A DNA stretch of 64,000 nt from assembly GCA_950295325.1 (NCBI GenBank), contig OX485809.1:8742001-8806000 (forward strand), read 5' to 3'. This DNA is from Polytrichum commune (Eukaryota > Streptophyta > Polytrichopsida > Polytrichales > Polytrichaceae). Position 1 is the first letter of the stretch; each line of letters starts with the position of its first letter. Shown here in pieces: positions 8,908-62,300 of this stretch. The position numbers and the translations under genes are program-made. Below the pieces are notes generated by a model. It was not told the DNA's origin. It did not search any database and saw only the letters and a program-made list of their open reading frames with translations.

Positions 8908-10469
8908 CCCAGAACCAGCAACAATCCCAACATAACAGGCTCTTCTTCAAGTGCCGAGCTTTGCTTTACTTTCAAGCTTTGCTTTACTTTCAAGCTTTGT
9001 TGCTTCTGCTCTCTTCGATTCTCCATGCTCTCATGTGAGTTGCCCAAGCAATGTATGTTCTAGTGTTGGATTTTGAGCTTGGTTGCTAGTCATTTCATTG
9101 TGCAGTAGGAATCTGAGTGACTGCAGTTAGTGATTCATACCCAATTCATTTCAATCAATCTTCATATCATTCATGGACTTTGCCACTAGTAGACTGTAGG
9201 ATGTGTTGGAGGAATATTGATTCAAGCTGTGAGGAAGTTGAAGGCTGATCTCGATTGGAATGGATTTTTCTGTTCAAGTGAATCCGTTACTTCTGTTGGT
9301 GGAAGTTCCTGCTGTCTCTTTCTGTTTTGGAGGTTTTTTCGGTTTCTGTTTCGTAGAGGTGTCGAGCTACTAGGGGTTTGAGTGTGGTTACATAGCTAAC
9401 TAGGAAGCTTTTCTTCAAGCTGGTTGACATCTCATTGCGGTTGAATCTGAGTGGTTGCAGTAACTTATTCATTCGATGATGAAGCTGGAATCAGTTCATG
9501 TCACCGATTTCATCATGTCATCTTACCATTCCTGGAGCAAGTGAGCGGCAACTTGCTAGAATCATGTGTTACAGTTGGAAGAATGAAACTAGGAGGAACT
9601 TGATCGAAGGAGCTAGAGTAGAGAACTGATATTGCTCTTGAAGTTATTATTTAAAATCTGTCGGTGCAGGAGGCCCCCGGTGTGGCAACTAGATCTCCCT
9701 TCTAATAACCCTTCAATCAATTCTAATACTTTCAGTGGATCGATGATTCGTTCTTTCACAAAGAGGAGGAGGACAATGCTTGGAAAGATCGATATCTCCT
9801 AATGGCCGCCTCGACTTTCCAAGCATGTTTCTCCGCTTCGTGACAGAACAAAGCACCAATTTATTACAAGTACTACAAGAGATTCAGAAACAATTGGTCT
9901 AGAAGCTAAGAGAGCTGCTACACCGGGAGCAGTCCGTTTGTAAGAAACTTTTCATTTCAAACTACGATCGAAACAAGGATCGATGAAGTCGCTCTGTAAC
10001 ACATTTTCTGTTACAATAGACAGTAGCACTAGCTACGTGCTACTGATCTCCACATTTTGATGACTCACCAAGAATGAAATCTTACCGAGCAACAATAATC
10101 AAGTGTGCAGTGCCCTCAATCAGTTCTACTTCGTCGGTCCCGGTGGTCTTCGATGTGAAAGTGAATTTCCGGCAATGAAGAAATACTAACGTTGTTGCAT
10201 AATTCATCTAAACCCAAATAAAAAGAAAAAGAGAAAGGAATGTAGTCGCTAACATATCGGAACACTTTGTTGCAGGACCTGGCATTCATTAATTTCCCGA
10301 ACAAAAAACTTCGTTCGATCACATTATAATCGATGTTGCAATCAATCTTACTGAATCAAGTGATCATTGCAACTGTATAGTTTTTTTCTCGTCGACCCTC
10401 TTGAATAGTTCAAGCCGATCCAGTTGAAGTCGCATAGTACCTATTCATTCTTCATCAGTAGAATCTGAG
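8908..10469 (+). other. Probable 5' leader/proximal region of KAI2-like gene
   Basis: No coding exon was found. The region is moderately GC-rich compared with flanking DNA and may hold a leader with introns. Segment 9770-9930 resembles 11300-11400 and 11805-11895 inside intron 1: all three share CCAAGCAxGTTTCTCC followed by an AGAACAAA word. The leader is therefore part of the local duplication history. Confidence 0.4.
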
Positions 10470-13400
10470 ATGGTGCATTCAAGCTCCCTAGTGCTGGCCG
10501 CTCACAACGTGACCACTTTGGGGAGCAGCGGCGATGATCAAGCAGTGGTGGTGTTGGGCCATGGGTTCGGAAGCGACCAGTCCGTATGGAAGTACATCGT
10601 ACCCCGGTTGCTGCAGAGCAATTACAGGGTGATTCTTTACGACCTGATGGGCTCAGGTGCCACCAACGCCCACGAGTTCACGTTCAAGCGATACTGTGCC
10701 ACCTCGTCGATGGCAATGCACGCCTACACAGACGACCTGCTAGCCATCTTGGACGAGCTTCGGATCGACAGTTGCGTCTACGTCGGCCACTCTATGTCGG
10801 CCATGATCGGCTGCCTCGCAGCAGTTGAGCGGCCCCAACTCTTCCGTAAACTCGTCCTGTTGTCCGCATCTCCCAGGTATTGTTATTACTCATCTGCACA
10901 GAATTTGAAGGATTTTTCTCAAGATAGATGGAATCATAAGACGGTGTCACTAGTTTTGATGCTGTGGGAATTAGATGAGGATGAGTATTGGGATCCTGCC
11001 GGGGTGGCAATTAATTGATTGTCTGTAGCACAAGCTCGCAGGGATCACCTGTCTTTAGAACTTGGTTTGGAGCTGTAAACCATTTCTTGTGAGAAATAGC
11101 ATTTTGGTGGAGTTACTTTTGTATTATAAGCATTTTTGAGGTTACAGATGTTAAGAAATTTCATTAATTTTCTTATAAGTGAGCTTCAATAACTTGGAGG
11201 GGTGTGGATAGTGACCCTTCTTGTTTTAGATGAATTGCTTCTAATGAGTTCTAAAACTGACACTTCAAAATGCAAACCCTTTCTACTTCAAACACAAATG
11301 ATTGGATGAATGGATTCCTCGACTCAATGCCCTCTTTCCAAGCACGTTTCTCCTCGTTGTGGAAGAACAAATCAGTATTAGAAGTGCTTTAGAAGCAACT
11401 GTTGGAAAAGGTTGCCTCGCTGCAGTTGAGCGGCCCCAACTCTTTTAGAAACTCGTCTTGGTCTCCGCATCTCCCAGGTACTACTCGTCTGCACAGAATA
11501 TTAAGAGTTTCTCTTAAGATAGATCGATGGGTCGTCGCTTTGGGAATTAGATGAGGAGGATGAGTATTGGAATCCTCGGGGTGGCAATTAATAAATTATC
11601 TGTAGCACTCGCTCGCAGGGGTCACCGTCTTTAAAACTTGGTTTTGGAGACAGTAAAATCTAACAAATTTTGTGAATGTTGTTACAAGGAGGGGGTATGG
11701 ATGGTGACCCGACTTTTTTTAGACGAATTGCTTCTAATCAGTTCTTAACAAACTCACATTTGAACATGCAAACCTTTTCTACTTCAAACCCAAATCGTAT
11801 GAATGGATCCCTCAACTCAATCCCTCTTTCCAAGCATGTTTCTCCTCCTTCTGAAAGAACAAATCAGTATTACAAGTGATTTAGAAGCAGCTGTGCGAAA
11901 AATACGGAAAGTGCCACCCTGGGGACCGACTCCTAAATACCTTTAATTTTTTTCAAAATAGGCTCACCCATAAATTATAGGAAGATATCGGTGTGTAGTT
12001 TCGATCAACTCGGTCATTAGTTGTTGCATTGTTAGATCATGACTTGACAAATTAGAATAATATGAAGACGGCTACAAGGAAGGGACTCTCATCTCACCTT
12101 ATCAGTGCTGGAGTTTCGATGGAGATTCGGATAATCTGGCATCTGCTTCGGTGATCTCTTGCTGCAACAGTTCCTTTTGTCAACTTCTGTATTTTAGAAA
12201 TTGAGATAGACGGGGAAGTTTGATAGAGGCTCTCCACCTAACCATAGAGACAACCTTAGAGAAGCAAATCACATAAGCTGATGATTCTGCTCTCACCTTA
12301 AGCCTCTTTATTGATATGTTACTTACACTTGTGATATCTTCTCGGCGACGTGATGATAATCACTTGGTGACGTGACAGGTACTTGAATGACAAGTCGTAC
12401 TACGGAGGGTTTGAGCAGGAGGAGGTGGACCAGATGTTTGAGGCCATGAAATGCAACTACGGAGCATGGGTGTCGGGGTTTGCGCCACAGGCAGTCGGGG
12501 TTGCGGGCAATATGAATAGCCAAGCCGTGGTCGACTTCAGTCGCACATTGCTCTCCATGCGACCCGACGTGGCCCTCAATGTTTCCATGACCATATTTCA
12601 AAGTGATTTCCGAAGCATTCTTCCACAGGTTAGTATAGATCAAACTCTATCACTACAAGCATACGTGTCCTGGGTAATTGACCTGAGTCACTGGATGATT
12701 GTCCTACATCTTTGGAAAAGTTGTGCAAATCTATTACAGCAGTGGTAGATGTGCATATTCCTTCGAGCAACACAGCAGGATTGTCGAGGTCTCATATGTT
12801 GGTAGTATATGTGCTCAATGTTTCCTTATATTCAATAGTAATTGTACGCTTCAACTTATGAAAATGGAGTAAAAGATCCAACCAACGCCCTAGGTTTCGC
12901 AAAACTTTGTAACTCTCACCTTCATGACTCTGTCATGTGTTCCAAGATAGATGGACCTTATGTGGTCACTCTTTAAACAGACACGTATATGTGAATGGTA
13001 TTCCCATGGTTTTAGAATTATACGATATGTAACTCATCACGAGTTTTGGTTGGGAGTTGGTTGTTTTGCATACAATATCTTTCCTTTTTCATATTAGCAT
13101 GTCAAAAGGTGGTAGAATGAATTTGATCCTCAATAAATCATAACTCAATAGGATGCTCTTCATTCAAATCCAAACACTACCTATGAGTGGATGCACCACA
13201 AGTGGAAAAATATTCTAAATATTATATTCAATACAACCAATGAGAAATCCTAGGGGACCAATTCCCGACAACAAGTCCCATTAATAAGCTAATTAAGGAC
13301 AAAGCTCTCTATAATATGGCAAGGTTTGTATTTAAGAAATGCACACCATAAAGACACGATGATGATGATGATGTTTGTAGTTGTACTTACAATTGATTAT

Positions 13401-14593: not shown

Positions 14594-15771
14594 CACCCTA
14601 ACCTTGATAATGTCACACCCTCCGTTTCACCAAAAAGTGTGATATAAACAAGGTGTGACATACTTGATAATGTCACATTTTGTGCATAATGTGATATTAT
14701 CAAAAATATGTAGAAAATCAAAATATAATTACAAATTTTTTAAAATAACAAATACGAGACTTCAATGTTTTTGAATGTAAAATCTAATTCAAAATTGTGA
14801 ATAACAACAAGAGCACATCATAATGTGTCATTGAGATCAGGTAAAGACCTCTCACTAGAGACAAAGAAGCTTCTAATGTCACATTGTTTTGTTGATGTTA
14901 AATGTGCAACACCAATTCTAATGAGTTTGTCATGGATTTTTTCCATTTCTAACAACTCATGAGTGCTGAAAATCTGAGAACCTTGGCTAGCCATAAAATT
15001 CAAAACATCTTTAGCATATTTTTGTGCATCGCTTAGCTTCACTACTTTAGACTCATCATCATTGCTATCAACAATCAATGGGTCCACTTCCATGGAATCA
15101 AGAACCTGTTCGCCATCTTGCACTAATTGCACAAGCTCCTCAGTAGAACCAGGTAGAACCAGCTGGTAGTTACAGATGAACAGGTGAAGGTCAAGACTTC
15201 AGGAAAATTACTGATATCAACATATTTACAAGCAAGAGCAAGGACAGAACTTAGAACCAAACATTCAAATTTGTGGAATGCAAGTTATAAGGGGAAGAAA
15301 CCCACCACCACCACCAAGTTGCTGTGAGTCGAACAATCAGCAGGAAAAATCAGCAGGAAGTGTATCTGTGTGTTTGTGAACTTCCACCTTTGGCCTCAAC
15401 TTACATACAACTGCAAGTATGTAGAATTGAGCATTTGGACTTCGAAACACGTACCAAATTTGAAATTACACAAGGCATCCCACTATGCCGAAAGCATTGA
15501 ATGAGAGCTCATTCAATGACCCCCAATATGCTTTGCTTTAGCCCATGCTCACCCATGAACAATAATATCGAACCCATGCCCACCCATACAATCCATCCAT
15601 ACTTGATATTATCACATTTACACTACGGATTTTGAAAAAGAATAGTGACATTATCAAGGGTGATAGGGATAATAACGAGGGAGTTTTACACTATGAAAAT
15701 CGGTTTCAAACTTTTAGGTGACAATATCAAGGTGTTCTATTAACAAGGGTGACATTATCAAGGTTAGACTG
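14594..15771 (-). mobile_element. Deleted pogo-type (Tc1/mariner) element
   Basis: The right end inverted repeat (ATTATCAAGGTTAGACTG, ending at 15771) pairs with a slightly mutated left end (CACCCTAACCTTGATAAT from 14594), and TA dinucleotides flank both (14592-14593, 15772-15773). Subterminal GTGACATTATCAAGG-like words recur at both ends, as expected for multiple transposase sites. The element keeps only the transposase C-terminus (14818-15132, minus). Its middle (15150-15600) contains sequence not seen in the 49-51-kb relatives; 15155-15230 resembles the repeat at 56440-56530. Confidence 0.85.
14818..15132 (-). pseudogene. pogo-type transposase C-terminal fragment
   Basis: The frame encodes about 104 residues nearly identical to the C-terminal half of the frame at 50912-51574, including KLSDAQKYAKDVLNFM and the tail KQCDIRSFF-VSSERSLPDL. 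All upstream catalytic parts are missing, so this is a remnant. QCDIRSFF fits a PCNA-interacting (QxxIxxFF) motif. Confidence 0.8.
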
Positions 15772-15849
15772 TAACCATAAAATCACATGCTTAAAAGTCA
15801 AGACTGGACTATGAGTTTAAACTTTATTACTAATTCACACTCAGTAATG

Positions 15850-17128
15850 GGGGACGTTAAGTACCCCCCCACGAACTAATAGGGATTCCATATTCGGGCG
15901 GGGGCAGCCCTCCCACGAAATTTCTGCCCCCGCCTGGATTTTCTCCAAACCCGCCCGAAAATAGCTGCCCGCCCCGCCCGAAAACGAAAAAAATATTGCT
16001 CTTCCATTCTTGAAGGCCGCTTGACTACAAATCCCATATTGAGTGCACTTCACCTTCAAGGTCTCAAATCCAATATATATGTGCACTTCCACCTAGTAAA
16101 TAAGGCATTAAATGGGATTTCATTCCGGAAGTGAAACCATCAACCAAGAATGTAATTAACTTGGAAGTCAAAAAATTAGAAATTCCTCATCAACATTGAG
16201 GTTATAATTTTTATGACTTATCATTTGAAATTGTCTTCGTCATTCTTAAATGACACTTAAATTTAGTGTGCTGATGTGGTATGTATATTTTATAATATTT
16301 TAGATAATTCTGGCTACTTTCAAGAATATTCGTACGCACTTATTCTAATTAAGTGTGATTTAATGTAATTATGTCTAATTAATTCTGATTAATCCTAATT
16401 AATCCCAAATAAATCAGAAAGTATTCTTTCCAAATTAAGTAAGACTAATTAATCTTAAAATTTAATTTCTGGAATTAACTCCAATTAAGTCCAATCAATT
16501 TCAGTAATTACAATACTCAATTTTTATATCCAGTAAGCCTAATTAACCATAAAATTTAATTAATGGAATTAACTCCAATTAAATCCGGTAATTAAAATAA
16601 TTGATTAATTAGTTCTATTAAGTATATTTTATAAATAAGCGCGTACGAATATTCTTGAAAGTAGCCAGAATTATCTAAAATATTATAAAATATACATACC
16701 ACATCAGCACACTAAATTTAAGTGTCATTTAAGAATGACGAAGACAATTTCAAATGATAAGTCATAAAAATTATAACCTCAATGTTGATGAGGAATTTCT
16801 AATTTTTTGACTTCCAAGTTAATTACATTCTTGGTTGATGGTTTCACTTCCGGAATGAAATCCCATTTAATGCCTTATTTACTAGGTGGAAGTGCACATA
16901 TATATTGGATTTGAGACCTTGAAGGTGAAGTGCACTCAATATGGGATTTGTAGTCAAGCGGCCTTCAAGAATGGAAGAGCAATGTTTTTTTCGTTTTCGG
17001 GCGGGGCGGGCAGCTATTTTCGGGCGGGTTTGGAGAAAATCCGGGCGGGGGCAGAAATTTCGTGGGAGGGCTGCCCCCGCCCGAATATGGAATCCCTATT
17101 AGTTCGTGGGGGGTACTTAACGTCCCCC
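15850..17128. mobile_element. Foldback element with 495-bp arms and 9-bp target duplication
   Basis: Arm 15850-16344 is the inverted copy of 16634-17128, with only a few mismatches and an equal-length fit (paired coordinates sum to 32978). Flanks carry the 9-bp direct repeat TCAGTAATG (15841-15849; 17129-17138 allowing one base in the C run), pointing to a Mutator-like origin. The ends begin G-run ACGTTAAGTA C-run. Each arm holds a CGGGCGGG-rich block (15894-15985; 16998-17085). The loop (16345-16633) is AT-rich with about ten TAATTAA words. The 83- and 87-codon frames in the arms are by-products of the palindrome. Confidence 0.88.
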
Positions 17129-18512: not shown

Positions 18513-24300
<5,788 letters not shown>

Positions 24301-44889: not shown

Positions 44890-46849
44890 GACCCTTGACA
44901 CTTGGCCTTCGAGAATATGGGTCAACCCTCGAGCTCCCGCCATTTGGCAAAACCCTATTTGCGGAATGCCCAGGCCCAATGGCCTTATATATTACTAAAA
45001 TATCTTAGAGGGCTTTGTGAACTAAATAAGCCCCTAGGATTGGCGCATTCCGCAAATAAGGGCCCGTTGAAGGGTGGACTCACATTCACGGAATGCCCCA
45101 TCCCAAGGGCCTTATTAAGCATAAAGTTCTCCAAAATAATTTGCACCGCACGATTAGGGATCAAATCAACAACTCATGACCATATATGCAGATTAACCCT
45201 CCTTGTTTTCTGGCATGGTAAAAATACCTTGAACATAAAGACATGGTATTTTTATTGTGTTCGTTTTAAATTATTATGTTATTTAAAAATCCACTCATTT
45301 GTGGTGACAATGCATTATGGCCTGCATAATGCCCACTATATATGGTCTTTATGTAAGGGAATATGCTTCGGGTTGTGCATTATGGAATATAAAGGCACGT
45401 GCCCTCAGACTTCCACCTTTGTGCAAGTGCCCTAAATTCCATGATGTAAGGAAGACAAATGGAAAACAATGAATGATTATTATTGGTCCACCAGACTATG
45501 AGTAGAATGATTCTTGTGTGGACCCAACATGGCTAGTTGTAAAAGTGATGGCCCTAGAGGGATGCAGTGATTGACCGGATAGGTCATGTTTCACACCACT
45601 TGGGATCCTTATGGGTGCCATTGAGTTATCCATTTTGTATGTAGAGTAGGATACTTTGATGCTCAAATTAGGGAGACTCTACTATACAAGTAGGCGTTCG
45701 ACTTACTTGCCTCTTTGAGAAGATGTAACTAATTATTTGCAAAGAATAAAATTACGAAACAACTCACATTCCTCATCATTTCCTCTACTCCATCTCTAGA
45801 AATATTCCACAAATTCCAAGGCACCCGTTTTACAAACTTCATGTATGAATTTTACATGACACTAAAAATGGACGTTAGAACTGCAATTTTTGACTATTGC
45901 AGTTAGATTTATACTTTTAGTTGAGACCCACAGGGCCGCCCAAGCTGCAGAAGCCTAGCCTCATGTGCCCAACCCATCAGGGCGTTCCTCTGCACTTAGG
46001 GTGAGTTTCCATGTAGGCCACTCGCTCACTAAATTCTAGAAGATAGTGGGTCGGAGGTGTTTGCATGCCCTTAAATCCAAGCCACCATCCAACCACATGT
46101 TGGCAATACACTAGAATACGGAGGGCCTTGGACATGAGCCACTAGACTTCCATGCGCCCACTTAAGAATCTTCAACCTACAAGTGCCGGGCACCGACAAT
46201 TTTAAGGACCGGTTCCATAAGGAGGAAGAGGTCTTAACATGAAGAAAGAGGTTAGTAACTGAGGATGGATTTAAGAAGATGAGAATAGCTACTGTAGTTG
46301 ACACATCCGAACCCTACCCCACTAGATTCCCTCTACATTTGGACGGGTTTGTCATTATTCACACTAGAATCTGGTGGGCGAGCGTTCTACAATGGAAACT
46401 CACCATTATATGGCGGGCGCGGGGAGGTGGGGCTCACCACCGCCCGCTTTTCAAGCTCCGTGTCTGCGCGGAGGGGTCTTGGCACGCGCGCTGGTTGCCG
46501 GGTGGCGGGGTCTTGAGGCGGGGGGGGGGTCTTCGCTGGGAGCCTAGAGCGGGGGATACGACGCCACGTCGAGGCCGGGAAGCGGCGCCTTGGCTATTCG
46601 TCCGCCGGCCACATGCAAAGCCGGGTCTAGAAGATGCGATGCACCGGAACCCAAAAAGCCAAACCTGTTCGAAAGCCAATACAATATCAGTTACATCATT
46701 CGTCATCATACAACACCCCCCAAAAAGGAAAATCAATCGTTCGTTTGATTGCAATTCAAGGGCGAGAGAGGTTCGAAAGTCAGAAGAGGGAGGATTCGGA
46801 CTTGTAATTTGAGCTAAGCTAAGTTAGGGTTGGTGACGATCGATCGGCG
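44890..46849 (+). other. Intergenic repeats and cytochrome c (copy 1) promoter region
   Basis: 44900-45180 shares AAGGGCCTTAT, CCGCACGATxA and GGATCxAATCAAC blocks with 43650-43830 and is part of a diverged repeat. From about 46370 to 46640 the DNA is strongly GC-rich, with G runs, and merges into a 5' leader ending at the cytochrome c start. No other gene was recognised; the long frames in the GC-rich part occur on both strands and lack motifs. Confidence 0.5.
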
Positions 46850-48610
46850 ATGGCGTCCAAGGAGAATTGGGCGGAGGCGCCCAAGGGAAACGAGAAGGCA
46901 GGCGAGAAGATCTTCAAGACCAAGTGCGCGCAATGCCACGCTGTTGAGAAGGCCGCTGGTCACAAGCAAGGTGCGTTCGGGACGGGGATGGGTTAGACTA
47001 GGTTTGTTTTGTTTGGATTGCACTTTCAGCTACGGGCAGCTTGGAGATTCTCCATGCGAGCTGTCGCTCTCCGGTAAAGTAACGAGGTCCTTCCAACTTC
47101 GTAGCGAACAAGGTTGCTCCGAGCTTGGTACAGGACATCTTACTAGATATGTCCCCATTCCGTTTCCATTGAAAAGGATGCATATAGTACAAGCCTTGCC
47201 AGTGATTCGTGTATGCATACCTAGCACATCTTGTACCGTTGTGTGCAGTGTGTGAATCGTCTGAGCACGTGATTGGTGGGCAATAATTGGGGCATAGCTC
47301 ATTGTCGTGCTCGAAGAGTTTCATGCAAGCTATTATTTATTTCGAAGCCATGTCTGGGGAGAGACACCTGGTGTTCCTCTTGTCAAGTGGAGATATATTC
47401 ATCAATCTGAGCGAAGAGAGGCAAGGAACGGGTGTCGAACAGTCTGGTGAAATTCTTTTGTAGCAGATTTGTGCCCGTTTTCTAAGGTGAAGTAGTTAAT
47501 TTTTTCAGGCGGCGCATAGGATTCTTACCACTCTTAACCAATAACGACATGCCACACATCACTTAGAATTCTAGGCATTTCCGGTCAGAGTTAGTCATGA
47601 CAGGGAAGATGATGTGTTTGAACTGAGATTGCAGTGTCGTTCTTTGTTTGGACGCGAAAGCATGTGAACTATGAAGATTCAGGAATGTCGACTTCTTATC
47701 AAGTCGAATGACTTGTCTTGCAGGACCAAACTTGAGTGGGTTGTTTGGAAGGACATCCGGAACTACTGCCGGTTACACTTACTCCAAAGCCAACAAGGAC
47801 AAGGCTGTGGATTGGAACGAGGAGCATCTCTATGAGTACTTATTGAATCCTAAGAAGGTGAAGTCACAGCAATTCCGGTTATGTTGTTTTGTGACGTTCA
47901 TTACTGTGTCAGCTAATTGTGATTTTTCAAAAGGATGAACATTTGAGGTAATCCCCTGTGATATGTGTTGCGTAATTGATATGGTGGAGAAGCCTGGACT
48001 GTGTGAAAGGCGTCTGTAACAATAGGCGCATATGCGACCTTTTAAAAGGTGTTGGATTATGAACATTTGTTGTGTTTACGTGTGCAGTTTATTCCTGGTA
48101 CAAAAATGGTGTTCCCTGGGTTGAAGAAGCCACAAGAGCGAGCGGATCTTATTGCCTACCTGAAAAAGTCTACAGCAGCTTGAAGAAGCGTTCAGTCGCC
48201 CACACAATTTTGTCTCAAGAGTCAATCTACCTTGGTCGATTGATCAAATCATTCAGTAGTATTTACCCAGGAATTCATCCTGTGAAGCAGTAATTTGTTG
48301 CTAGGGGGACTACGAAATAATGGATTCAACTGCCTGGTTTCTGGGCTTATGGAGTTGACTACATATTGCAATAGAATCATTCTTTTATTTTTATTAAATG
48401 TGCAGGACTGTTTTCCATGACTATCATGGATACGACAGAAAATTTGAGACGATTTTTGAGAGCCAAACTTCTTGGAATGTGGATGGTGTACGCTTGTGGA
48501 GGTTGGGTTGATGAGCGAATTCCCAATCCTTATTTTCTTGCGCATGCACTCCCTACATGGATTAAGCGGTTTAGCGCCAGATCTCTTACATTAGATGGTT
48601 TTATTATCTA
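46831..48610 (+). repeat. Left arm of 1.78-kb cytochrome c inverted duplication
   Basis: Pairs with 52918-54697 in inverted orientation with no gaps (paired coordinates sum to 101528). Every stretch I compared, in exons, introns and 3' flank, was identical. Identity stops sharply at 48610/52918, and around 46830/54698, where a TAGGGTT word is shared with a one-base offset. Confidence 0.92.
46850..48183 (+). CDS. CYTC: Cytochrome c, copy 1
   Basis: Exons 46850-46970, 47724-47857 and 48088-48183 join (phase 1, then phase 0) to 116 residues, near the plant norm of 111-113. It is a soluble electron carrier between complexes III and IV in the mitochondrial intermembrane space. The heme-binding CAQCH is at 26-30, and the axial Met92 lies in [23 protein letters not shown] and NPKKFIPGTK are typical plant-type landmarks, as is the extended N-terminus before [11 protein letters not shown]. 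The C-terminus ends YLKKSTAA. The start ATG is the first in the leader after the GATCGATCGGCG context. It is identical to the reverse-strand copy at 53345-54678 but has its own GC-rich promoter. Confidence 0.97.
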
Positions 48611-50456
48611 ATTGCTAGTTGTCTCAAATTAGATGGTTTAACCGTTTACGAAGATGGTATATTCCATATTCAGGCCCCGAGATTTTACAACTATCTAGTG
48701 GGAGAGAATCAGTTGTAGCTTAAAATCAAATCAGGGGTACGAAGGGGCTTCACCCGTCCACAGACCTCCCACGAACCTGCTGTGCCTTACCCTGCCCAAA
48801 GCCTGTAACCCACCCTGCCCTTGCCCTTGCTCTTGCCCTTCACCTTGTTGCTCCTTGCTTGAATTCCTGTAGAGCCTCAAAGCGGAGCAGTGGAATATGG
48901 GTTTGAAAAACTTCTAGAGAAAAAATTTCTTTTACATTCAATCGAGCAATCCGTGTGGGAGCTGAATTTGTACCCACAAGTCATCACTTCGCTGGCTTCT
49001 GTTGAATTTGATGGAAGTAGCAGAGCTTGGAAAATAGGGTTTAGCTTTCTTGTTTGCTATTGGGAATCTGTGGTGTGCATTTTATATCACTTCACGTCAC
49101 TTCATCTCCTTACTTCAGTGCACCTGGCTGGCTTTGAATAACGAGACACTCACCAATAATCTTAATTGATCTCAGTTGCAGAAATAACTTCCAAATTTGT
49201 GTAGTATGCGAGAAATGTGAATCTCTTTTCTAGCCACCATCTACCAAAATGCATCAGTGATAGTATACACAGTGGTGATCTTTGTAGTCCAGCATCTCTC
49301 GAGACCAGATTAAATATATGTGTACGATACAGTCTAACCTTGATAATGTCACCCTTGTTAATAGAACACCTTGATATTGTCACCTAAAAGTTTGAAACCG
49401 ATTTTCATAGTGTAAAACTCCCTCGTTATTATCCCTATCACCCTTGGTAATGTCACTATTTTTTTCCAAAATCCGTAGTGTAAATGTGATAATACCAAGT
49501 ACAGTCTAACCTTGATAATGTCACCCTTGTTAATAGAACACCTTGATATTGTCACCCTTGTTAATAGAACACCTTGATATTGTCACCTAAAAGTTTGAAA
49601 CCGATTTTCATAGTGTAAAACTCCCTCGTTATTATCCCTATCACCCTTGGTAATGTCACTGTTTTTTTCCAAAATCCGTAGTGTAAATGTGATAATACCA
49701 AGTATGGATGGATTGTATGTGATGGTTGGATGGACAGATTGTAGTAGCCGAAAGGGTCATGCGCCACCCCTGTGATAAATGCAATGCTATTCTTGGAACT
49801 TGATCGCGCACCAACCCTGAACGGTGTTGTCTATACACGGCACTCAAAGGTGTTGTCTTTTTACGGCGTTGTCAAGACTTCTCAGCCTCTATGCACCCCA
49901 CCTTCCGTCACATGTGTTCAACTGTGTGTCTTTTCACGATGTTCACGCATGTGGGCACAAGAAGAAGAAGAAGAAACCAAGGAATTTTGCTTCACGGAAC
50001 TAGAATTGGGGTTTCTGGAAGGTACTCACATTTGGGAAGTAGAGGGAGATCCCCAATTTTGTTTAGCAAAATCTGTAAACTAAGTTAGAGGGTTGTTTAT
50101 CACTAGTTAATTAGTTTGGGCGCCCATCTGATTCGTTTCCTAGTTTTGGAGATAACCTTCTCGGCTCTGTTTCTGGCTTTCTCTCATAGATGGGAACACG
50201 GAAATTGGGAGTAAGCAGATAGGTCTTGCGTGTGGAAGACGTCAATGCCATCACCTGCATGTTGTGTATTCCAGAATTGATCATGAGGGTTTCGGTTTGT
50301 GTGAAGTTATTCAGGAAGTTAAGTTCTACGGTTTAGCTGAGCTGGTCCAGGTACAGAGCAATGTCGACTTAAGCTGAATTAGTTCATTTGGTTTGCTGTG
50401 CAGGTGCTCTTCGTTGTGTTGTTGTTATTGTTATTGTTGCTACATTGGAAGCTAGT

Positions 50457-50640
50457 GAATTTTATGGCTAGCCAAGGTTCTTAGATTTTCAACACTATGG
50501 AGTTGTTAGGAATGGAAAAAATCCATGACAAACTCATTAGAATTGGTGTTGCACATTTAACATCAACAAAACAATGTGACATTAGAAGCTTCTTTGTCTC
50601 CACTGAGAGGTCTTTACCTGATCTCAATGACACATTATGA
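50457..50640 (+). pseudogene. pogo-type transposase, short C-terminal fragment
   Basis: About 60 codons equivalent to the end of the frame at 51390-51574, joined abruptly to unrelated upstream DNA. It includes the QCDIRSFF motif and the PDLNDTL tail. Confidence 0.8.
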
Positions 50641-50911
50641 TGTGCTCTTGTTGTTATTCACAATTTTCAATTAGATTTTACATAAAAAAAATTGAAGTCT
50701 CGCATTTGTTATTTTCTTTTTTACATTGTAATTGTATTTTGATTTTCTACCTATTTTTTTGATAATATCACATTATGCACAAATCTTCAAAATGTGACAT
50801 TATCAAGTATGTCACACCTTGTTTATATCACTCTTTTTGGTGAAACGGATGGTGTGACATTATCAAGGTTAGACTGTATGGATGGGTAATGTGATAATAC
50901 CAAGTATGTAA

Positions 50912-51574
50912 CAAATTGATAACAACTCAAATGAAGATTTGGGGAAATTGAATGTTGATCTATTTCAAGCTATGCTATGGTGTGTGGCGGCATGGCATGA
51001 ATTAGATGATCAAACCATTAGAAATTGTAGGAGAAAGTCCATCATATTGCCTACAGAGTGGAATGCAAATATCAACAATTTTGATGAACGTATGAAGTCC
51101 AAAATGGAGGAAGCAGCTTTGGAATTGGGCAATCTCATCGCCGCATTGAATTTGGGTTTGGATGTCGAAGGCAAGCCTGTAGAAAAGCTTTGTCCTTTGG
51201 AGTACATAAACATGGAAGGTGAACATGATTTTGAGGTGGAATATTCTACTGAGGAGCTTGTGCAATTAGTGCAAGATGGTGAACAGGTTCTTGATTCCAT
51301 GGAAGTAAACCCATTGATTGTTGATAGTAGTGATGGTGAGTCTAAAGTAGTGAAGCTAAGCGATGCACAAAAATATGCTAAAGATGTTTTGAATTTTATG
51401 GCTAGCCAAGGTTCTCAGATTTTCAACACTCTGGAGTTGTTAGGAATGGAAGAAATCCATGACAAACTCATTAGAATTGGTGTTGCACATTTAACATCAA
51501 CAAAACAATGTGACATTGGAAGCTTCTTTGTCTCTAGTGACAGGTCTTTACCTGATCTCAATGACACATTATGA
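50912..51574 (+). pseudogene. pogo-type transposase, 5'-truncated
   Basis: An open frame of about 220 codons has no plausible ATG at its start and follows a stop at 50909-50911. LFQAMLWCVAAWHELDDQTI-RNC matches the post-catalytic block of plant pogo-type transposases, in which a W precedes a T-I-x-N-C motif. An acidic stretch follows (about 1240-1330 bp into the cluster). The end reads QCDIGSFF, a PCNA-interacting QxxIxxFF motif. The DNA-binding and DDE parts are missing. Confidence 0.8.
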
Positions 51575-51802
51575 TGTGCTCTTGTTGTTATTCACAATTT
51601 TACATTCAAAAACATTGAACTCTCGTATTTGTTTTTTTTTTTTTTTACATTGTAATTTTATTTTGATTTTCTACCTATTTTTTTGATAATATCACATTAT
51701 GCACAAATCTTCAAAATGTGACATTATCAAATATGTCACACCTTGTTTATATCACTCTTTTTGGTGAAACGGATGGTGTGACATTATCAAGGTTAGACTG
51801 TA

Positions 51803-52917
51803 GTGGGATCAAAGTAAAGTGACCTGGAAAAGCAGTAATTGTTTGTCGCCTTTAATGCAGCAAGTTGGATGTCAACAAGTTGTTTCCTTAAGAGATTGGG
51901 AGAGTTCTTCAAATTATTGTTCTACGAAGTAGAAAATCATTTTGAGTCAAAGAGCAAGAATCTCTCCTTGATGCCGAAGTGTAACAAGGTATGCATAACA
52001 TCCCTCAAAGATTCGGAGACAAAATTGTGGGTTCGACTCTTGTTTGAGAGAAATTTCTTTTATGAGCTTGTGAGCTCATCGTGTGTTGAAACCTATTTTG
52101 AGCGTTGGATGAAACTCCTTGGACCTCATGTTACCATCCCAAAAACTGAGAAACCTTTAGCATCTTAAATAGGGTGTGTTCATGGGACCAGTCACGTTAA
52201 ATCCCGAATGGACCTATGCAAGGCTAGATTGGCCCACCCATCCCAACATGACAAGTTAGTAATCTATTTTTTGATAGCCCAGCACCACTCTTTGAACATG
52301 TTAATTCAAGCCGTCATAAAATCTATAGTTCAAGCATTCTACACCCAAAGCTCCAGTAATCGATCAATATTCAAGTTTCACAGCCATCAATATACATCTT
52401 CTAGTGCATCCCCATCCTATCAGGGAGAGGAGCGCACAGGGGCGGGAAGGTGCAGGACTTCACAACATCCTGAAAGTTGTAAACGTCTGAATATTAATTT
52501 CAAATATTTCAATATTATAACATTCTCATGGACAAGGAGAGATTTCACATATCTCTCATTAAATTTAAATTTACTGAGAGCATACCAATATAACCACACA
52601 TGTAATTGAGTTAACCAAAAATATTTTGTACAGTGCAAACTACAGCCGCATTCTGCAAGAATGAGATCATACATCCTAATCAGCTTTGATGTTGGGGATT
52701 TTCACTCATCACTAACTTACAGAATGAGATTGCAATTACAGCTTCTTCAGGCCACAAAAGAAACCATCAACAAGACCTCAACTCTGTGTCTTTACAATCT
52801 CCTTCAGAACTTGAAGCCTCCCATCACTACAGGGAATTACTTGATCTTGTGCTACTCGTTCTCTTCAGTAGATGGTTATAAACTCTATGGACCTGAACTT
52901 AGGATGTTCCATCCTTG
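51803..52917. other. Spacer DNA right of the pogo cluster
   Basis: A 109-codon plus-strand frame (51839-52168) with no recognised motif and A/T-rich sequence follow. The region ends sharply at the right arm of the palindrome. On the other side, 48611-49329 is also unassigned; it has a CCCTGCCC/CCCTTGCC run near 48790-48840. Confidence 0.4.
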
Positions 52918-54697
52918 TAGATAATAAAACCATCTAATGTAAGAGATCTGGCGCTAAACCGCTTAATCCATGTAGGGAGTGCATGCGCAAGAAAATAAGG
53001 ATTGGGAATTCGCTCATCAACCCAACCTCCACAAGCGTACACCATCCACATTCCAAGAAGTTTGGCTCTCAAAAATCGTCTCAAATTTTCTGTCGTATCC
53101 ATGATAGTCATGGAAAACAGTCCTGCACATTTAATAAAAATAAAAGAATGATTCTATTGCAATATGTAGTCAACTCCATAAGCCCAGAAACCAGGCAGTT
53201 GAATCCATTATTTCGTAGTCCCCCTAGCAACAAATTACTGCTTCACAGGATGAATTCCTGGGTAAATACTACTGAATGATTTGATCAATCGACCAAGGTA
53301 GATTGACTCTTGAGACAAAATTGTGTGGGCGACTGAACGCTTCTTCAAGCTGCTGTAGACTTTTTCAGGTAGGCAATAAGATCCGCTCGCTCTTGTGGCT
53401 TCTTCAACCCAGGGAACACCATTTTTGTACCAGGAATAAACTGCACACGTAAACACAACAAATGTTCATAATCCAACACCTTTTAAAAGGTCGCATATGC
53501 GCCTATTGTTACAGACGCCTTTCACACAGTCCAGGCTTCTCCACCATATCAATTACGCAACACATATCACAGGGGATTACCTCAAATGTTCATCCTTTTG
53601 AAAAATCACAATTAGCTGACACAGTAATGAACGTCACAAAACAACATAACCGGAATTGCTGTGACTTCACCTTCTTAGGATTCAATAAGTACTCATAGAG
53701 ATGCTCCTCGTTCCAATCCACAGCCTTGTCCTTGTTGGCTTTGGAGTAAGTGTAACCGGCAGTAGTTCCGGATGTCCTTCCAAACAACCCACTCAAGTTT
53801 GGTCCTGCAAGACAAGTCATTCGACTTGATAAGAAGTCGACATTCCTGAATCTTCATAGTTCACATGCTTTCGCGTCCAAACAAAGAACGACACTGCAAT
53901 CTCAGTTCAAACACATCATCTTCCCTGTCATGACTAACTCTGACCGGAAATGCCTAGAATTCTAAGTGATGTGTGGCATGTCGTTATTGGTTAAGAGTGG
54001 TAAGAATCCTATGCGCCGCCTGAAAAAATTAACTACTTCACCTTAGAAAACGGGCACAAATCTGCTACAAAAGAATTTCACCAGACTGTTCGACACCCGT
54101 TCCTTGCCTCTCTTCGCTCAGATTGATGAATATATCTCCACTTGACAAGAGGAACACCAGGTGTCTCTCCCCAGACATGGCTTCGAAATAAATAATAGCT
54201 TGCATGAAACTCTTCGAGCACGACAATGAGCTATGCCCCAATTATTGCCCACCAATCACGTGCTCAGACGATTCACACACTGCACACAACGGTACAAGAT
54301 GTGCTAGGTATGCATACACGAATCACTGGCAAGGCTTGTACTATATGCATCCTTTTCAATGGAAACGGAATGGGGACATATCTAGTAAGATGTCCTGTAC
54401 CAAGCTCGGAGCAACCTTGTTCGCTACGAAGTTGGAAGGACCTCGTTACTTTACCGGAGAGCGACAGCTCGCATGGAGAATCTCCAAGCTGCCCGTAGCT
54501 GAAAGTGCAATCCAAACAAAACAAACCTAGTCTAACCCATCCCCGTCCCGAACGCACCTTGCTTGTGACCAGCGGCCTTCTCAACAGCGTGGCATTGCGC
54601 GCACTTGGTCTTGAAGATCTTCTCGCCTGCCTTCTCGTTTCCCTTGGGCGCCTCCGCCCAATTCTCCTTGGACGCCATCGCCGATCGATCGTCACCA
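52918..54697 (-). repeat. Right arm of cytochrome c inverted duplication
   Basis: Inverted partner of 46831-48610; details are in that entry. It covers from about 20 bp upstream of the ATG to about 430 bp past the stop. Confidence 0.92.
53345..54678 (-). CDS. CYTC: Cytochrome c, copy 2
   Basis: Exons 54678-54558, 53804-53671 and 53440-53345 encode the same 116 residues as copy 1, with CAQCH at 26-30 and Met92 intact, and with the same intron sequences. Both introns keep GT-AG ends. The arm stops just upstream of the ATG, so the promoter (54698 onward, GC-rich, with CCCGCTCGG and GCCGCG words and an AACCCTA telo-box-like word at 54699) is unlike that of copy 1. If both promoters work, two genes supply the same protein. 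Confidence 0.95.
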
Positions 54698-55000
54698 AAC
54701 CCTAGCTAGCTTGCCGAAGAGCTTCGGAAGATCTCCGTAGGCACTCAAGTGACGAGATGCTTGTTCCCCCTCGCCCCGCTCGGCCTGGCGGCCTTGCTTT
54801 GGCCGCGTGCCTCGGGCAGCGGGCAGCCGCTCGTGGTTGGGAAACGTTTGTCCGCCGCCTGCTTCGAAGGGCAGACGTCCATGTGCGGGCCACTTATTGG
54901 ACGCCGCTGGCGTCGACGAAGCTTCTCATTGGACGGGAACCCTTAAGCTCTCGGTTGGTCGAGCACTTTCGTCGTGTTGAATAAGAGGGTCAAACATAGT
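54698..55000 (-). promoter_or_regulatory. GC-rich promoter region of cytochrome c copy 2
   Basis: About 250 bp of GC-rich DNA lies upstream of the minus-strand start, with an AAACCCTAGC telo-box-like site at 54697-54706. Frames through it occur on both strands and look incidental. It is not homologous to the upstream DNA of copy 1 beyond the first few bases. Confidence 0.4.
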
Positions 55001-55227
55001 AAGCAAAGTGGCTTCTGTTTTTGTCGTCAAACATACAACTTGGGACACTACTGTATGATTTGTTTTTTTGATGATGCACGTTGAGAGAAATTTTTAACTC
55101 TCAAATGAAGTGTTGTAGTATTTCGTTCTTGGGAGCGTGCATATATAACATTATTGAGTCGTGTGGTTAAGTGTCATTTCTATGTTTTGCATCTGACAGG
55201 GCCCTCCATTGTCTTACCTTCATGTCC

Positions 55228-55505
55228 CAAACCAGTGAGATCAATCCATGCAATCTGAACCGTTGAGGGCATGGGAGTTGAGACTCACCACTTCACACGG
55301 GTCTCAAGTCCTAAGTCCCAAATCACTAAGATCAATCCGTTCAATCTCAACCGTTGAGAGCATGGAAGTTGGGACTCACCCCTTCACATGGGTTCCAAGT
55401 CCTAAGTCCCAAATCAATGAGATCGATTCGTGCAATCTCAACCGTTGAGAGCATGGAAGCTGGGACTTACCACTTCACACGGGTCGCAAGTCCTAAGTCT
55501 CAACT
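55228..55505 (+). repeat. ~90-bp tandem repeat, three copies, in a MITE-like element
   Basis: Units begin near 55229, 55316 and 55404 with a CCCAAATCA-TGAGATCxAT type word. They continue through CAATCTxAACCGTTGAG, GCATG-AAG-TGGGACT and CTTCACA(C/T)GGGT-CAAGTCCTAAGTCC. The phrase near the unit end recurs in inverted form at 55725-55760 (GGAACCCCATGTGAACGGGCCC), suggesting the array lies inside an element bounded by GGGCCC at 55199 and 55757. Confidence 0.75.
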
Positions 55506-59303: not shown

Positions 59304-62300
59304 TCATGTCCCCTCCGGTAAAGATTGAGACGGCACAGATACATTGAAATCCTTGTCCAACTTTGAGTCCTCGTGTACAAGATTCTCTTTTTCCTTCGCT
59401 TCCAAAGCAATCTTCTCTTTTGCTCTTCGGAAGTCATTCATAGTTCGAAATTCTTCTGCTAGTAACCTTTCCAGCTCCGGATGTTTCTTCACCGCCTTCT
59501 TGTCCTTACGATAGAAATGGAATGCCCTGCAGTCATTGACAATGGCAATGATCGCATCCAGTGTTCTCACTTGTACTATACAACTCTCAAAACATGCATA
59601 AACATATAATCTTATGCAAAAATCTGTCCTATTTGAGTATGCTCTAATGAAAAGACAAAAAGATAACCAAGTAATAAATTATGATCTTTCCACACCCATC
59701 GTGCAGCCAAACTTCCCAGATTCACTTGCTCCTTAAGATTTGCTTGCAGGCAAAAAAAGTGACCCAACCTCCATACAGAACCTAAACCTTCTAGGTTATT
59801 GAACAATGCTACTAATGATGGGAGCATACCAGTATTTCTCAAGGCCGTAGAGATTTCCTTTAGAGTAGGTATCCAATGTGAGTTTTTCAAAGTCATCATA
59901 CATGTCCTGCTTGAACTGCTTGAACTGCTCCAGGCCATAACTGCACAACAAAGTATAAACTATTCACCATCAGAAGCGATACTGAGGTAATTCAAAAGTA
60001 TCCATTTACCATGCAAAGGATCTGGTCCTAGCTCTTCGCACGGAAACAAAAAAATTTAAAAACTAGATATCTCCTACAATACGGATTTGTTGAGTTGTGT
60101 GACTCATTCTAATTCCAAAAAACCAATAAAATTCAAATTAGGCCTGACTAACATGAAATTTTAGGTCGTCGTACTTTCAACAGTCAAAAGTACACAGAGA
60201 GCAGGATAACCATCAAAATCATGAGAACTAAAGTTACAACTACTGATATTATTATTTTGATAATATACTTTTGAATTTGTTGTAGTATAAAAACTGGTGT
60301 GTGTGTGTGTGTATATAATATGATGAAATGTTTACTTTATGGTCACACTGGATATCATCATAAAGATAAGTAATCACACCATCTCATGGTGTAGCTACGT
60401 TTCATACAACTTCCAGAACGCGTATATCCTTGTGAGCAGGTTGACTGGGAGGGTAAGACTGAAAGTGAGACAAGGACATAAGAGGAAGTTACAAAAAACC
60501 TGAGGACTGCAAATAAAGTTTCAAAATCTGCAACTGCCATTATATCCTCAAAGAAACTGGCCTTTGACAAACTCAGCAATTCCTACCTGTAGAACCTGAA
60601 GAGGCATTCCATGCCGTAGTTGTATTTGGCTGCTGCATCTTCTTGTGCAAGCTTTTTGAATTCTTCATACATGGACTTATTAAAATTGGTCCGCAGGAAG
60701 TAAGACCAAAACCTGAACAGGGTGTTCATTTCCTGGAGGCACATTCACACAATCCATGAGTTCATTGTCCATCTTCAAGCTGACCTTCTCATTTCCACAC
60801 CTTTAACATATCACAATTACAGATCCAAAGAAATAATATGCAGCACACTTACTTCACTGCAACCTATGCCAACTCGCTTACGCTCCACCAAACACCGCTT
60901 GTAATACTTTGCATATCTGTTTGTCAACAACAGTATGGCATCAGGTCCATAAATAGAATTTCAGCTGTAATATTCTTGGTGTAGCTCCTATGACTATTTT
61001 GGCCAGAAATGCAGTAGTATTAAGAACTGTTTATGATCAATGAGGACTCATGTCAATGATTAATTATTTCAAAAGAAGCACATACATACTCTGCCGATTG
61101 ACACCTGAAGACTACAATTTCCCATCGACCCAATTTTTTTCTATCTTGAAACCATCTTGCTTCATAATATATAAGAATAGTTAGTGCCCAACCACAATCT
61201 GAGTTATTGGAAAGAATATAATCAGGAGAATGAAGCATACTTCTGTTGCTTGAAGCCATTGTCTTCAAGAAGAGCATGACTAGGATGCTGGAAGTGGGGG
61301 AAAGACTTCGGCACTGATCCAACAGGTGGACTGCTTCCAGGCATAAAACTACCCCCAGGTGATGTCCCATAAGGTGATGACCCCATTCGCGTTGATCCAT
61401 ATGACGAGGACAGGGATACACTGCAGCAATAATCAACCAGTGATGCTCAGCAATGTCTATGATAAATGATACTGCTATGCAATGTGCACAACAGACCACC
61501 ATGTAGAACACTTAATATCCTTAATATTCCTGGCCCAGCCTGTTCAAACTTCACATCCACAGTAAGAGTACGATTTGCATCTAAATAGATACGTCAAACC
61601 ACTTCAAAGATGGACTGTAATGGTTAGTTGAAGATGGAAGCCCATTGCATATCACACAAGATCTTCAGTTCGCGAGAAGTCTTCAAAAACTTTTGATCCA
61701 CCAGTTTTAAACAAGATGAACGCCATGACTATTGCAGCAGCCTCCACATGCTTCCCATACTAAAAATTACTGAATATCAGAATCTTCGTTCGTATTCAAA
61801 CACTACCTCCAAGTATACAACACAAGTGGCAAGAAATCACTGGGAAATCATAGGGCCAACTCTACAAGAAATGTCCAATTAGGTTAAAGGACAACTCTAA
61901 GATATCATCTCAATACGGGTACATGGTAGAAATGCCACTCACCTCTGGTTGTCAGGGGGGGTCGACCCAAAGAAGAATCCAACAGAGTCACTTGGAGGGC
62001 TCTCAGCAGTGAGCCTATTTCGATGCCCAACATCCCTTGGGTTACTAGGAAACAGCCGCTGCTGGTAACTTGGTCGGGAAAATTTGTTGAAGCCTCTGGG
62101 TGGCCGCAAAGGACCATGACCATCTGAACCTACACTACTACCAGCACTGCCTGCAAATACACGGCCTGTTGGCTCTCCTGTGTTGCTCCCAGTCTCCACA
62201 GATGACACTTTGACTGGCTGCACAGCACTAATTTTTTTGGATTTCCCTTGCCACAACTCCTGCCCATCGTCATGACGACCCAAGTCAGTTAATCATTCTG

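Follow-up and report, generated by a model that had tools for sequence, protein, structure and literature searches.

Gene conversion between neighbouring inverted paralogs has been described in Caenorhabditis. The passages of a review that deal with these pairs report conversion between adjacent inverted copies in the hsp16 modules and in hsp70-7/hsp70-8, with tracts extending into introns, and consider diminished flank homology to be compatible with a gene-restricted duplication (PMC3966223). The pair of cytochrome c genes analysed here resembles these Caenorhabditis pairs, as far as those passages describe them, in its opposed neighbours, its apparently homogenised gene bodies, its reduced flank homology and a tract that reaches introns. 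However, it involves another gene in another lineage and differs in the diverged homology at its 3' edge and in an out-of-register junction. As weak flank homology is read as fitting a gene-restricted duplication in the relevant part of PMC3966223, the residual 3' homology is of importance here.

In the moss Physcomitrella, the similarity among tandemly arrayed genes was taken to suggest gene conversion in the passage concerned (PMC3045890), which cites Lang et al. (2008). The likeness to the cytochrome c pair lies in linked copies of very high similarity from a land plant, with conversion as the suggested process, whereas the Physcomitrella passages do not cover orientation and tract edges. 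The relevant part of PMC3729371 contains nothing on conversion between arrayed genes. In plant somatic tissue, synthesis-dependent strand annealing (SDSA) is described as the most prominent homologous repair route in the section of PMC5895730 on this subject. As in plant SDSA or one-sided invasion, so far as that section describes them, one break end would have copied from a homologous template at our locus; in contrast to the experimental systems, the cytochrome c case is deduced from a single natural junction. In one-sided repair, the second break end can be joined without homology. Puchta (1998) reportedly dealt with SDSA and one-sided invasion in plants. A literature search found no paper that combines a duplicated cytochrome c gene, introns and gene conversion. 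The process as such is already known, and the cytochrome c pair is a clean new example with unusually clear edges rather than a new kind of system.

Two cytochrome c genes in identical inverted arms

Both genes are located in the window, i.e. the whole stretch of 64,000 nucleotides that was analysed, on two arms of opposite orientation (Table 1). The first-pass annotation had described gapless inverted arms of 1,780 bp with a constant coordinate sum, and had suggested aligning them base by base. This alignment confirmed the description: the arms are identical and free of indels over 1,781 bp, and paired coordinates always add up to 101528. Arm A begins 20 bp before the ATG and ends 427 bp after the stop codon. 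BLAST carried the match between the arms to 46816/54712 at 99.83% with two gaps. The limits of the arms are sharp, with similarity continuing for only a few bases at the outer ends (46816-46829) and the two sequences parting after 48610 and 52918 at the inner ends. The spacer between the arms comprises 4,307 bp (48611-52917) and the genes converge on it, in line with the facing copies and the spacer of ~4.3 kb given before.

Each arm carries a complete and intact cytochrome c gene, as had also been claimed. Splicing of the three exons at GT..AG introns yields a coding sequence for a protein of 116 amino acids without internal stop. The introns of 753 and 230 bp are retained and identical in both copies, which rules out a retrocopy. 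The protein contains the CxxCH haem site in the form CAQCH. Among the best 60 of 87 PDB matches, the first is 1ccr_A, named 'cytochrome c' (E 2.1e-56), the second has an E-value of 3.6e-42, and those that follow include chains named somatic, testis-specific and iso-1. Judged by its sequence, the protein is a mitochondrial cytochrome c of the plant type. Given the similarity to 1ccr_A, the rice cytochrome c, the window most likely derives from a plant nuclear genome. A tblastn search of the window with the protein (E up to 1) matched only these two places and revealed no third copy. RNA folding of the 3' region of copy A gave a z-score of -2.27.

Table 1 Features of the cytochrome c locus with their positions in the window, strand and the basis of the assignment.
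Feature	Position	Strand	Basis
Arm A, identical tract, likely recipient (inferred)	46830..48610	+	base-by-base comparison, 0/1,781 differ
Copy A exon 1, cytochrome c	46850..46970	+	spliced 116-aa ORF, GT..AG introns
Copy A exon 2	47724..47857	+	spliced ORF
Copy A exon 3 with stop	48088..48183	+	spliced ORF
Imperfect 38-bp duplication spanning the 3' junction of copy A	48573..48648	+	48573-48610 / 48611-48648, 26/38 identical at offset 38
Native copy A 3' flank, diverged homologue of arm B end and B flank	48611..48752	+	alignment score 94
Transposon remnants in spacer, motif TA-CAGTCTAACCTTGATAATGTCAC terminal and internal	49328..51802	+	motif positions, BLAST, tandem repeats
Native copy B 3' flank, homologous to copy A flank	52812..52917	-	local alignments
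Arm B, identical tract, opposite orientation, likely donor (inferred)	52918..54698	-	base-by-base comparison
Copy B exon 3 with stop	53345..53440	-	mirror of copy A, coordinates from constant sum 101528
Copy B exon 2	53671..53804	-	mirror of copy A, coordinates from constant sum 101528
Copy B exon 1	54558..54678	-	mirror of copy A, coordinates from constant sum 101528

Spacer elements and other genes of the window

For the transposon remnants in the spacer, Pfam returned only a sub-threshold match to PRP4, and an ORF at 50912-51574 had no match at E 0.01. Copies of a DNA transposon with the same end motif, TA-CAGTCTAACCTTGATAATGTCAC, are present at 14598-15773 and are related to the remnants; elements with this motif are presumably pogo/Tigger-like. 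A 203-bp repeat (1.8 copies, 98% matches) lies at 49337-49704. Furthermore, the window contains a second young inverted repeat at 15849-17128, in which arms of ~496 bp with 99.2% identity surround 289 bp and which is flanked by the 9-bp direct repeat CTCAGTAAT. It looks like a non-autonomous Mutator-like element.

Three other genes were recognised by their protein domains: a TIP49/RuvB-like gene with exons at 19359-19862 and 20633-21049 on the minus strand (PF06068, E 2e-58 and 1e-49), the HEAT region of LARP1 with exons at ~60,478-60,735 and 59,829-59,981 on the minus strand, positions computed from translated frames (PF21071, E 2.3e-31 and 3.7e-08), and an alpha/beta hydrolase exon at 10428-11018 on the plus strand (PF00561, E 1.4e-17). 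Scans of the window for tRNAs and Rfam families found none.

Homology at the edges of the arms

Introns and 3' flank had previously been reported to match wherever they were compared. While they are indeed identical within the arms, diverged homologous flanks past the inner arm ends had been overlooked. Between 48614 and 48699 the flank of copy A forms a gapless block of 86 bp with B, in which 61/86 positions are identical (JC distance 0.37, ~29% different), a divergence that is, if anything, underestimated, as the block was picked as the best alignment. The counterpart of this block in B consists of 35 bp at the end of the arm and 51 bp of B's own flank. The final ~50 bp of the copy A flank can be aligned only with gaps; including this continuation to 48752, the alignment scores 94, compared to a mean of 28.6 (sd 5.1) and a maximum of 54 in 1,000 shuffles. 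Elsewhere in the window, a 170-bp A flank scored at most 48 over 780 places, these being the 796 window places (320 bp, both strands) minus 16 rows at the two loci, among which the opposite-strand rows reach 53. In the reverse test, the 170-bp flank of B stood out less, with 64 for A and 51 for the next best place. The best of 2,000 random window pairs, each tried over 121 offsets, reached 43/86 vs 61/86 for the flanks. Differences at 25/86 positions in the block stand against 0/1,410 at the non-coding sites of the arms, i.e. both introns (753 and 230 bp) and the 427 bp that follow the stop codon; the Fisher p for this contrast is 2.5e-33.

Local alignment (2/-3) of the 300 bp that follow the two 3' ends gave a score of 37 (shuffle mean 18.3, sd 2.4, maximum 30, n=300). 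With 5/-4 scoring, inner flanks of 300 bp scored 249 vs a shuffle maximum of 247 (n=300), and those of 700 bp, with 515 vs 543 (n=100), did not rise above the shuffles. Since longer flanks were barely or not above shuffles at 5/-4, we claim flank homology for ~140 bp only. A dispersed repeat as the source of this homology was rejected, as a 77-bp A piece and a 74-bp B piece align to each other with a score of 60, and their best scores in the rest of the window are 37 and 39, respectively.

At the 3' junction of copy A, the flank resumes 38 bp before the position of the arm end and is thus out of register. Copy A contains two versions of the 38-bp stretch, the first identical to B and the second diverged (Table 1), and the offset alignment passes ungapped through this repeat into the flank. 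Among the other 24 offsets (25-49), the best fraction was 12/30 (40%) and the best count 15. Aligned alone to the whole arm, the first 42 bp of the A flank gave a marginal score of 32, which 2/500 shuffles reach; for this reason the out-of-register join is put forward as a proposed step. Most simply, the register shift would mean that copy B overwrote copy A and that the 3' side was closed by end-joining.

On the 5' side, the ~14 bp next to the arms are weakly similar in place (AAGCTAAGTTAGGG / AAGCTAGCTAGGG), the anchored score being reached by 3/2,000 base-shuffled controls. Either homologous 5' DNA has left a remnant here, or the two copies may share a telomere-like box. No homology beyond chance was found outside the 5' ends, as alignments over 100, 300 and 1,000 bp scored within the shuffle range. 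The statement that the promoters differ completely therefore holds for these upstream alignments (100-1,000 bp) but not for the weakly similar ~14 bp next to the arm. Within 600 bp upstream, neither copy contains TGGGCC/TGGGCT (either strand), TATAAA or CACGTG. AGGGTTT occurs in copy B only, at -25, and CCAAT at -175 in copy A and at -254 and -222 in copy B. A 91-bp tandem repeat (3.1 copies, 86% matches) is located at 55224-55503, ~500 bp beyond the outer (5') limit of arm B.

Probable conversion of an older pair, with its alternatives

Diverged homology (61/86) bordering arms with 0/1,781 differences suggests that the pair is probably old and that its bodies were homogenised recently. On the strength of these comparisons we consider it likely that ectopic (interlocus) gene conversion recently homogenised the bodies of an older cytochrome c pair, including their introns. 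Recent duplication, arm-to-arm conversion and an artefact had been listed side by side by the first-pass annotation; the diverged homology supports conversion and disfavours a simple recent duplication, and an artefact is unlikely. Given conversion of an older pair, the sequence of the junction makes B to A the probable direction.

The starting state would be an old inverted pair of cytochrome c genes arranged tail to tail. Repair of a break in copy A may then have copied ~1.78 kb out of copy B, with the 5' tract edge falling in the short residual similarity immediately before the ATG. On the 3' side, the copied strand would have overshot and been joined to A's flank 38 bp out of register, leaving the 38-bp imperfect duplication. 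Each copy would have kept its own upstream region. If one break end copies the template and the other is joined without homology, an out-of-register 3' join would be expected. As there is no 5' homology beyond ~14 bp, it is mainly the 3' flank that suggests that a complete gene once resided at A. The 95% upper bound of arm divergence is 0.0017. Plants accumulate ~7e-9 mutations per site per generation, and at this rate the arms would be, as a rough estimate, younger than ~0.12 million generations and the flank ~26 million generations old; the flank/arm age ratio of ~200 or more is independent of the rate.

A version that overlaps with this explanation assumes that an older 38-bp tandem duplication already existed in A and that the tract ended at the heterology, in which case conversion from A to B would be possible as well. 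Given conversion, it is possible but takes the smaller share: the junction does coincide with the edge of the 38-bp repeat, but an extra duplication and a coincident tract end would be required, and the ungapped course of the offset alignment through the repeat into the flank argues against it.

A simple recent inverted duplication was rejected as the main reading, as unrelated flanks would be expected up to the breakpoint, whereas the 3' flanks are homologous and diverged. A recent duplicative insertion would be compatible with the latter if the body of gene B had been copied into a site where nothing but an old relic of a 3' flank of cytochrome c remained; the second gene would then be young. 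The identical arms and the 5' flanks without homology beyond ~14 bp fit this scenario, and so does weak flank homology, which the relevant passage of PMC3966223 considers compatible with gene-restricted duplications. We nevertheless regard it as unlikely, as a relic that is suitable in both kind and orientation would have to lie at the edge, and the weak 5'-edge similarity suggests homologous DNA at both edges. Even less probable is an assembly artefact, either a double placement of one gene body or a fusion of two haplotypes. It would account for the perfect identity over 1,781 bp but leave the diverged homology at the edges unexplained; the outer flanks differ between the arms, the inner ones are diverged homologues that meet the arms at sharp junctions, and a hairpin error would presumably have mirrored the flanks too. 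Cytochrome c is an essential protein that evolves slowly, but an old pair preserved by strong purifying selection alone, with no conversion, is hardly credible, being contradicted by identical introns (753 and 230 bp) and an identical stretch of 427 bp past the stop.

Zero divergence between copies is often taken as a sign of a young duplication. Here, the adjoining DNA suggests an old pair whose gene-body clock was reset, and the junctions show, for a plant-like nuclear genome, the start and the end of a whole-gene conversion tract, with a hint of its direction. It may be speculated, though this is rather doubtful, that recurrent conversion of approximately the transcribed unit keeps a linked inverted pair of essential respiratory genes identical, with the upstream regions remaining independent. 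If true, one protein would be locked together while two regulatory inputs are free to diverge, and one-sided repair would have left a natural footprint in the 3' junction of copy A.
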